From NCBI RefSeq assembly GCF_004765785.1, contig NZ_SBIT01000017.1, positions 1 to 64,000 on the forward strand: a DNA stretch of 64,000 bases, in the 5' to 3' direction. Numbering within the stretch: position 1 is the stretch's first letter; each line of letters begins with the position of its first letter. The stretch is from Halorussus ruber (GTDB taxonomy: Archaea; Halobacteriota; Halobacteria; Halobacteriales; Haladaptataceae). Position numbers and translations under genes: made by a program. This document shows positions 232 to 46,127 of this stretch, in pieces. The notes below the pieces were generated by a model. That model saw nothing but the letters and a program-made list of their open reading frames with translations. It did not search any database and was not told where the DNA came from.

Positions 232-412
232 GCTAGCTATTGCCGAAGCCTAGGGGTCTCCCGCACAGCACCGCAACCGCACCGCACCTCGTCCTCCCCA
301 CCCGCCTGCGGTCCTCACTTCGTTGCGGTCCTCGGCCCTCGCACGGATTGGCGGGGCCACGAGAGGCCCCACCAGCGCGCGCCGGACAGAAAACCGCGCC
401 AGCGCGCGCCGG
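232..412 (+). repeat. Dispersed structured repeat, copy 1
   Basis: Copy 1 of a four-member family (others at 4582-4743 minus, 11507-11673 plus, 45656-45866 plus). Shared blocks in order are GCTAGCTAT, CCGAAGCC, a block reading AGTCTCCCGCAC or close to it, runs of ACCGC, CCTCCCC, CCTCGCACG, a terminal hairpin, and CCAGCGCGCGCCG. In this copy the hairpin is GGGGCC/GGCCCC (353-358 with 365-370) around an ACGAGA loop, and the closing CCAGCGCGCG block occurs twice. No protein is credible here. It lies upstream of the first PilB gene. Confidence 0.7.
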
Positions 413-4581: not shown

Positions 4582-4743
4582 CGGCGCGCGCTGGCGCGAC
4601 CTCGTGTCGCGCCATCGGCGTGCGAGGGCCGAGTAGCGCAGGAGCGTAGCGACGAGCAACGCAGGCGGTTGGGGAGGTGTGAGGTCCGCGGTCGCGGTGG
4701 CGGGGCGGTGCGGTAGACTCCTCGGCTTCGGCGATAGCTAGCT
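4582..4743 (-). repeat. Dispersed structured repeat, copy 2 (minus strand)
   Basis: Read on the minus strand this copy begins with GCTAGCTAT and CCGAAGCC and ends with CCAGCGCGCGCCG, in the same block order as the other three copies. Its terminal hairpin is GGCGCGAC paired with GTCGCGCC (4593-4600 with 4606-4613) around ACGAG. It is inverted relative to copy 1 and lies on the other side of the pilB-pilC pair. Confidence 0.7.
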
Positions 4744-11189: not shown

Positions 11190-11382
11190 CGACGGAGTTG
11201 GTTCGTGGCGGGTGGGGGGCAGGAGATTGTTTCTTTCCCCCTTGTTTTTATTTCTCTAAGCAGCTTTTGTACGCCTTTACTCGATAGGTGGGTTCGGTGG
11301 TCGAGATTCGTTCGGGGTCGTTCACAACCTGTTGCTTTTGCCACTCCTCGATTTTTGCTACGCTGGTCGCCTGCTGGTCTTC
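11190..11382. other. Intergenic region, T-rich terminator-like tract
   Basis: Nothing coding is visible. The string CCCCCTTGTTTTTATTTC near 11237 is a plausible terminator for the upstream gene. Confidence 0.4.
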
Positions 11383-11487
11383 TGATGGTCCTGTTGTTCT
11401 GGTGGTCCTGCTACTCCTGATGGTCCTGTTGTTCTGGTGGTCCTGCTACTCCTGATGGTCCTGTTCTTCGAGTAGTCCTGCTACGAA
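11383..11487 (+). repeat. Tandem repeat, three 35-base units
   Basis: Units at 11383-11417 and 11418-11452 are identical (each begins TGATGGTCCTG and ends GCTACTCC). A third, diverged unit is at 11453-11487. Each unit is itself two related halves built on GGTCCTG. There is no CRISPR-like spacer diversity. Confidence 0.85.
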
Positions 11488-11506
11488 ACGAGGAGAGTCG
11501 AGCGAG

Positions 11507-11673
11507 GCTAGCTATTGCCGAAGCCGAGGAGTCTCCCGCACAGCACCGCAACCGCACCGCGACCGCGGGCCACACCCTCCCCAACCGATTGCGTTGCTCG
11601 GCCTGCGGCCTGCGCTACTCATCCCTCGCACGCCGATAGCGCGCTCACGAGAGAGCGCGCCAGCGCGCGCCGG
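11507..11673 (+). repeat. Dispersed structured repeat, copy 3
   Basis: This copy has the most regular block order of the family. It starts GCTAGCTAT, ends CCAGCGCGCGCCGG, and its terminal hairpin is GCGCGCTC/GAGCGCGC (11639-11646 with 11653-11660) around ACGAGA. It sits between the 35-base tandem repeats and the end of the minus-strand DUF2298 gene. Confidence 0.72.
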
Positions 11674-45589: not shown

Positions 45590-45677
45590 AGAAGCTAGCT
45601 TCAGACTTGAGAGGGAGAAAATCTGGCTGGTTCGGGAGAGAGAAGATAGAGAAGAGCTAGCTTCAGGCTTGAGTCTA
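45590..45677 (+). repeat. Direct repeat with GCTAGCTTCAG core
   Basis: AGAAGCTAGCTTCAGACTTGAG near 45590 recurs as AGAGCTAGCTTCAGGCTTGAG near 45653, about 62 bases apart. The second copy merges into the start of dispersed repeat copy 4. Confidence 0.6.
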
Positions 45678-45866
45678 GGCGTCTACCGCACCGCCCCGCA
45701 CCGCAACCGCGGGCCACGTCCTCCCCAACCGATTGCGCTTCTCGGCCTTCGGCCTGCGATGCTCATCCACCGGCAGAGACAAGCTCTGCCGAGCCTGCGG
45801 TCGCTTTGCTCCCGCAGACCTCGCACGGAAGGGCGCGGCGATAAAACGCCGCGCCAGCGCGCGCCG
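45656..45866 (+). repeat. Dispersed structured repeat, copy 4
   Basis: This copy shares GCTAGCTT, CCGCACCGC, CCTCCCCAACCG, CCTCGCACG and CCAGCGCGCGCCG with the other three. The terminal hairpin is GGCGCGGCG/CGCCGCGCC (45832-45840 with 45847-45855) around ATAAAA. An extra hairpin GGCAGAG/CTCTGCC (near 45772-45792) is inserted, so the copy is longer than the others (about 210 bases). Confidence 0.7.
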
Positions 45867-46127
45867 AATCGGTTGGCAAGAGGCTCAAACCCAATAGAAT
45901 ATAGTAAACCTTTACCCTCCGACGTGCATCCATTGGAGTACGGGAACAGCACAGCCGCAAATCTGACTCGCCGGGTGCTCGCGGGCGTTGCCCGCTCGCG
46001 ACCGAGGTCGTTCGACCTCGCCTTTTGCCCGGCTCGGGATTGCGGACGTGCGCCGCGTCAATCGACGCATCAGCACGCCTACCTCACAATCGGCGATAGC
46101 GGCCTGTGCAGTTCCAATCCGATAACA
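45867..46127. promoter_or_regulatory. Leader/promoter region of the rpsO operon
   Basis: A TATA-like GAATATAGTAAACC sits near 45896. Two hairpins follow: GCGGGC/GCCCGC near 45970 and CGAGGTCG/CGACCTCG near 46004-46021, the second followed by a short T-run (CCTTTTGCC). These could be a terminator-like attenuator before the ribosomal protein gene. Confidence 0.4.

Follow-up and report, generated by a model that had tools for sequence, protein, structure and literature searches.

What is the sequence that recurs at four places in the 64,000-nucleotide stretch of Halorussus ruber DNA analysed here (the window)? A sequence-only reading had described a dispersed element with a hairpin near its end, whose arms differ between copies and still pair, and had offered two explanations: an RNA or a hairpin-dependent mobile element. 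Reading the sequence again, we found the four copies where they had been placed, with their blocks in identical order. The terminal hairpin arms were as described in every copy, with one A.C mismatch in copy 1, and the loops of copies 1 to 4 were ACGAGA, ACGAG, ACGAGA and ATAAAA. Copy 1 extends to 412 if a second 3' end that follows it is counted. The features of the window are as follows.

232-384, plus strand: copy 1, matched at 284-383 by the family covariance model R1 with 89 bits; it runs from the 5' GCTAGCT module through a C-rich linker, triplet-mismatch helix, outer helix and terminal hairpin (350-373) to the AGCGCGCGCC end
395-412, plus strand: second, detached 3' end (CGCGCCAGCGCGCGCCGG) directly after copy 1, with an exact motif match at 399-411
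4582-4742, minus strand: copy 2
11507-11672, plus strand: copy 3, the best match of the family model (114.5 bits)
11507-11531, plus strand: 5' module of copy 3, GCTAGCTATTGCCGAAGCCGAGGAG, of the genus-specific type
11587-11623, plus strand: triplet-mismatch helix region of copy 3, in which every third pair is mismatched and the flanking pairs covary
11587-11599, plus strand: 5' arm of that helix, GAT(T)GCGTTGCTC
11600-11610, plus strand: inner hairpin of copy 3, GGCCTGCGGCC
11611-11623, plus strand: 3' arm of the triplet helix, (T)GCGCTACTCATC
11627-11669, plus strand: outer helix of copy 3, CGCACG (11627-11632) with CGCGCG (11664-11669)
11639-11646 with 11653-11660, plus strand: terminal hairpin of copy 3, GCGCGCTC/GAGCGCGC, enclosed by the outer helix
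45592-45618, plus strand: detached extra 5' module (GAAGCTAGCTTCAGACTTGAGAGGGAG) upstream of copy 4, recognized from its sequence
45656-45866, plus strand: copy 4; an inserted pair of hairpins (about 45768-45819) separates the triplet helix of this copy from its outer helix

The element is about 165 bp long and consists of a modular 5' end and a conserved, folded core that closes in AGCGCGCGCC-G. In most Halorussus copies the 5' end is GRA-GCTAGCT..., while the CCCTTTCAGTCCACCC type is found elsewhere and in some copies of the window's own genome. Its edges are consistent: GRA precedes GCTAGCT, and GCGCC is followed by G (88%) and then a purine. Three matches to the 5' motif GCTAGCTNNNGNCNNNG lie in the window, where 0.06 would be expected. 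For the 3' motif CCAGCGCGCGCCG, allowing two mismatches gives 19 matches against 12.2 expected, and this motif is not specific by itself; the significance lies in the whole element. In the orientation used above, the core has three structural parts. The triplet-mismatch helix reads GAT(T)GCG-xTy-CTC, a variable inner hairpin, then (T)GCG-y'Tx'-CTC-ATC, where x pairs with x' and y with y'. The outer helix joins CGCRCG with CGCGCG, and within it lies the terminal hairpin GGCGCG...CGCGCC.

Several other features lie in or near the copies. A small second module of two adjacent hairpins, starting with CACCGG, is inserted at two fixed points in element copies; we saw it at window 45768-45819 and at five further loci (L009, L015, L019, L023 and L042). 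Its arms vary yet pair (CGGCAGAG/CTCTGCCG, CGGCGGAC/GTCCGCCG, CGGAGGAC/GTCCTCCG), and it could be one mobile repeat lodged inside another. Many copies that lack GCTAGCT start instead with another dispersed module, ending in GGCCCCTTTCAGTCCACCC (L027, L036, L046, L053-L055 and L104-L113). That module also occurs without the core and seems to be a repeat in its own right, widespread in haloarchaea. A short tandem array (TCCTGATGGTCCTGTTGTTCTGGTGGTCCTGCTAC...) occupies 11360-11490, immediately 5' of copy 3, and the intergenic region that holds both is far longer than its counterpart in sister species. A predicted S15-Halobacteria ribosomal protein leader (Rfam RF03143; window 45940-46051) starts 74 bp past copy 4. 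CTAG, a methylation motif in haloarchaea, is scarce in the window, with 28 occurrences against 97 expected from trinucleotides. Seven of the 28 (at 232, 249, 4738, 11508, 45595, 45657 and 45675) fall inside one of the four copies or in the detached 5' module, and a link between these sites and methylation is possible.

How far does the family extend? With copy 3 as query, BLAST returned 40 strong matches of 73-100% identity in the organism's own draft genome (4.32 Mb in 31 contigs). We then carried out the covariance search of haloarchaeal genomes that had been proposed as a check, using R1, which was built from 34 cores and whose E-values are rough. At E values up to 0.01 it found at least 134 matches across the replicons of the window's genome, and at least one match in 129 of 292 sampled Halobacteria genomes. 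Counts per genome, drawn from up to 150 scored candidates and each a lower bound, were 134, 100, 28, 124, 36, 125, 132, 7, 142, 0, 51, 59, 92, 91, 112, 110, 25 and 110 for the Halorussus genomes. The near-complete Halorussus genome G009 had no copy among the candidates scored, whereas most genus mates have dozens to more than 140; counts were also low in G014 (at least 7), G015 (at least 25) and G004 (at least 28). Hosts outside the genus include Haladaptatus, Halosimplex, Natrinema, Haloterrigena, Halococcus, Haloarcula, Natronomonas, Halapricum, Halogranum and Halovenus. Among 197 genomes drawn from across the phylum, none outside Halobacteria matched, and all that did match belong to the window's order. 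Hence, the element is dispersed, as the sequence-only reading held, but its scale had been underestimated: there are more than 100 copies in this genome, and the family is class-wide.

We asked whether the pairing exceeds what base composition would give. Among 34 copies we counted 107 doubly changed paired cells against 32 +/- 5 after shuffling; the figures were 417 against 114 for 105 distinct rows and 441 against 139 for 106 copies from a separate scan. These counts come from related, non-independent sequences and are not probabilities; however, the many pair types span many genera, so that one inherited change cannot be their source. The signal was lost once the partner was shifted by one to three columns. 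The best covarying helix is one that the earlier description lacked, the triplet-mismatch helix GCG-xTy-CTC...GCG-y'Tx'-CTC. Among 197 distinct copies with a readable unit, 175 retain both outer pairs of the triplet, in about 11 combinations (among them CTT/ATG, GTC/GTC, TTG/CTA, TTT/ATA and CTC/GTG), and 186 retain the middle T opposite T. The terminal hairpin covaries as claimed, yet it is just one of three helices that do. Single-sequence folding energy was ordinary (z of -0.7 to 0) on either strand, folded as RNA or as DNA. Folding energy is thus uninformative, and covariation is the only evidence for structure; it lies far above composition, and selection on structure is supported. The sequence-only reading had named two results that would have spoken against it, a search returning only four loosely similar GC-rich strings or covariation no greater than composition; with at least 134 matches and covariation beyond composition, we obtained neither. 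Chance likeness of GC-rich strings was ruled out by the 40 BLAST copies, the motif excess, the covariation and the R1 matches.

Which strand folds? A wobble pair appears as G.T on the folding strand and as A.C on the other. On the strand used above, A.C outnumbered G.T by 121 to 22 in the class-wide set, 67 to 21 in the organism's own genome and 158 to 24 among the named public loci, a five- to six-fold excess in the class-wide sets. A single outer-helix position accounts for 46 and 50 of the A.C pairs in the class-wide sets; leaving it out brings the ratios to 75:22 and 108:22. The A.C excess points to the complement, which is probably the folding strand. There the fixed mismatches are purine-purine (A.A and A.G), and the short inner loops follow the pattern GNA. 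The asymmetry argues against a cruciform with equal use of both strands, and it fits RNA and single-stranded DNA alike. The presumed folding strand also carries a conserved GGTTGGGGAGGGTGTGG stretch (the complement of window 11570-11586, for example), which could, judging by its letters, form a two-layer G-quadruplex. The high potassium of haloarchaeal cells would favour such a structure.

We then considered where copies lie. With gene calls from a codon-usage caller made for this analysis, none of 192 copies fell inside a called gene (0 of 88 in the organism's own genome and 0 of 104 at public loci). Orientation relative to genes showed little preference: same-sense and opposite-sense placements beside tandem genes were even (24 and 23 in its own genome, 25 and 22 at public loci), and convergent contexts outnumbered divergent ones (22 to 17 and 30 to 11, respectively). 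On both sides of the 85 and 57 copies profiled, AT content was flat, with no promoter-like peak. Apart from common housekeeping families, we saw no recurring neighbour or carried gene. All 17 public-locus pairs within 200 bp were inverted and none direct; nine were tail-to-tail at 41-64 bp, with spacers that appear unrelated by sequence, and eight head-to-head at 71-158 bp. The window's own genome has few such close pairs; we saw one, head-to-head.

Do the copies move? The nearest neighbour of 80 of 108 copies lay in the same genome, against 23 under label shuffles, although this subset was partly picked by score, which may inflate the figure. We compared orthologous sites using one genome per species, and "not found" here means that R1 gave no hit in the stretch retrieved. 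The sister species G007 and G016 have copy 2, G002 has a degenerate form of it, and in seven others it was not found; copy 3 gave no R1 hit at the corresponding site of any of ten sister species. One copy of genus g21, judged to be Haloarcula in part from a shared neighbour gene, keeps its position across several species, a pattern that a resident function would explain as well. We conclude that most copies turn over while a few persist, and that the element is amplified lineage by lineage. The proposed check for filled and empty sites thus revealed differing presence at orthologous sites, but at species distance it gave no clean empty site and no target rule; at that level of comparison we saw no repeated flank around copies that would mark a target-site duplication.

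Perhaps a known transposase drives the element? Eight Halorussus genomes (G001, G002, G003, G009, G010, G011, G014 and G016) yielded no Y1_Tnp, and six of them (G001, G002, G003, G010, G011 and G016) have from 36 to at least 142 copies each. In 60 loci, copies near Y1 or TnpB genes did not exceed background density, and near Y1 they were at or below it. TnpB number and copy number are uncoupled: one genome has 4 TnpB genes and at least 142 copies, another 7 and none. With no association with copies, Y1 and TnpB were rejected as current drivers. Halovirus carriage was rejected as well, there being no match in phage records and no exact core match in viral contigs.

The Y1 and TnpB results bear on the possibility that the element is a PATE, a remnant of IS200/IS605-type transposons mobilised by their Y1 transposase. 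Like the PATEs of Haloquadratum, it is haloarchaeal and short, has no transposase gene, and combines a near-terminal palindrome and heterogeneous copies with a lack of terminal inverted repeats and of visible target duplications (PMC3119063). In our element the hairpin lies near the 3' end, and we saw neither terminal inverted repeats nor a repeated flank. However, PATEs are defined by kinship to the ends of IS605-type transposons (PMC3119063), and we found no link to such ends, as judged by density beside Y1 and TnpB genes rather than by comparing ends. Together with the Y1-free high-copy hosts and the uncoupled TnpB numbers, this makes a PATE the least probable of the readings considered here. 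Another possibility is a site that organises or repairs the chromosome: as proposed for E. coli BIMEs, it would serve as a binding site for a nucleoid, topoisomerase or replication protein and would spread by conversion or selection, not transposition. Copies that are exclusively intergenic, distributed over replicons, regularly inverted when paired and in one case fixed in place across species all suit such a role, but a genus in which one member has no copy among the candidates scored, another only 7 and sisters more than 100 does not, nor does the finding that most of the orthologous sites compared are unoccupied in sister species. We regard this as improbable, though less so than a PATE.

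Might the element instead be a structured RNA, transcribed from the complement strand by itself or by read-through, that acts by binding a protein or changing mRNA ends, the family then being one of genes or cis-acting elements? This is a little easier to entertain than a chromosomal site but still unlikely. The covariation is of an RNA-like kind, the wobble asymmetry is compatible with G.U on the complement strand, and there is a mild excess of convergent contexts at the public loci. Against these stand the missing AT-rich peak in either flank, the even placement beside tandem genes, a range from 0 to at least 142 copies within one genus, the ordinary bare folding energy and the lack of a match in Rfam 15. 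The element shares with Rfam's structured RNAs a secondary structure conserved through compensatory changes; it differs from them in being dispersed and amplified in particular lineages, with no promoter signal. Of the two explanations offered at the outset, the mobile element fits best, and the RNA gene is less supported because of the absent promoter signal, the small gene-relative bias and the lineage-specific amplification.

We also compared the element with other repeats. Bacterial REP, BIME and REPIN sequences are likewise short, non-coding, palindromic and extragenic, often exceed 100 copies per genome, lie inverted when close together, keep their pairing through complementary mutations and have a conserved internal mismatch (PMC2817692; PMC6006769). 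In contrast to REPs, which measure 20-40 bp and are described as bacterial (PMC2817692), the element is archaeal, about 165 bp long and built of several helices. Also unlike REPs with their RAYT (TnpA_REP), several of its high-copy hosts yielded no Y1 transposase; of the TnpA subclasses, IS200 is stated to be the only archaeal one (PMC6006769). By eye, we recognised no GT[AG]G foot tag in the aligned copies. The small mobile repeats (SMR) and MITEs of haloarchaea are also short, non-coding and multi-copy, but where these have terminal inverted repeats, our element has unrelated ends and internal pairing. A MITE was rejected: 5' GCTAGCT and 3' GCGCGCC are not inverted copies of each other, and the flanks hold no matching duplication. 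In the open-access literature we found nothing on the element's sequence strings or on archaeal REP-like repeats.

We think it probable, if well short of certain, that the element is a mobile DNA repeat of Halobacteria, non-autonomous and structure-carrying, which behaves much as bacterial REP/BIME sequences do. By definition it is not a REP, because several high-copy hosts lack a detectable Y1 and the surroundings of Y1 and TnpB genes hold no excess of copies. A putative trans-acting protein would bind the complement strand while it is single, during replication or transcription, and would recognize it through the hairpins and the helix with its retained mismatch at every third pair. We infer the next step, in which this protein would cut the folded strand and move or copy the element; copies landing in genes would be purged by selection. 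The folded structure could equally be read as RNA. More tentatively, and with rather less confidence than in a mobile repeat as such, we suggest that this is an independently arisen archaeal counterpart of REP: a class-wide repeat with a non-Y1 mover and a one-strand reading of the helix with periodic mismatches.

REP and BIME sequences have been described from bacteria and linked to RAYT proteins, and here the same habits appear class-wide in archaea, including species that yielded no Y1. If true, this would mean a new mobiliser or a different way of spreading. Genus mates with 0 and with more than 140 copies would allow the mobiliser to be sought through gene content, and the covariance model allows the family to be annotated. 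The periodic-mismatch helix would be an unusual and precisely defined target for recognition.
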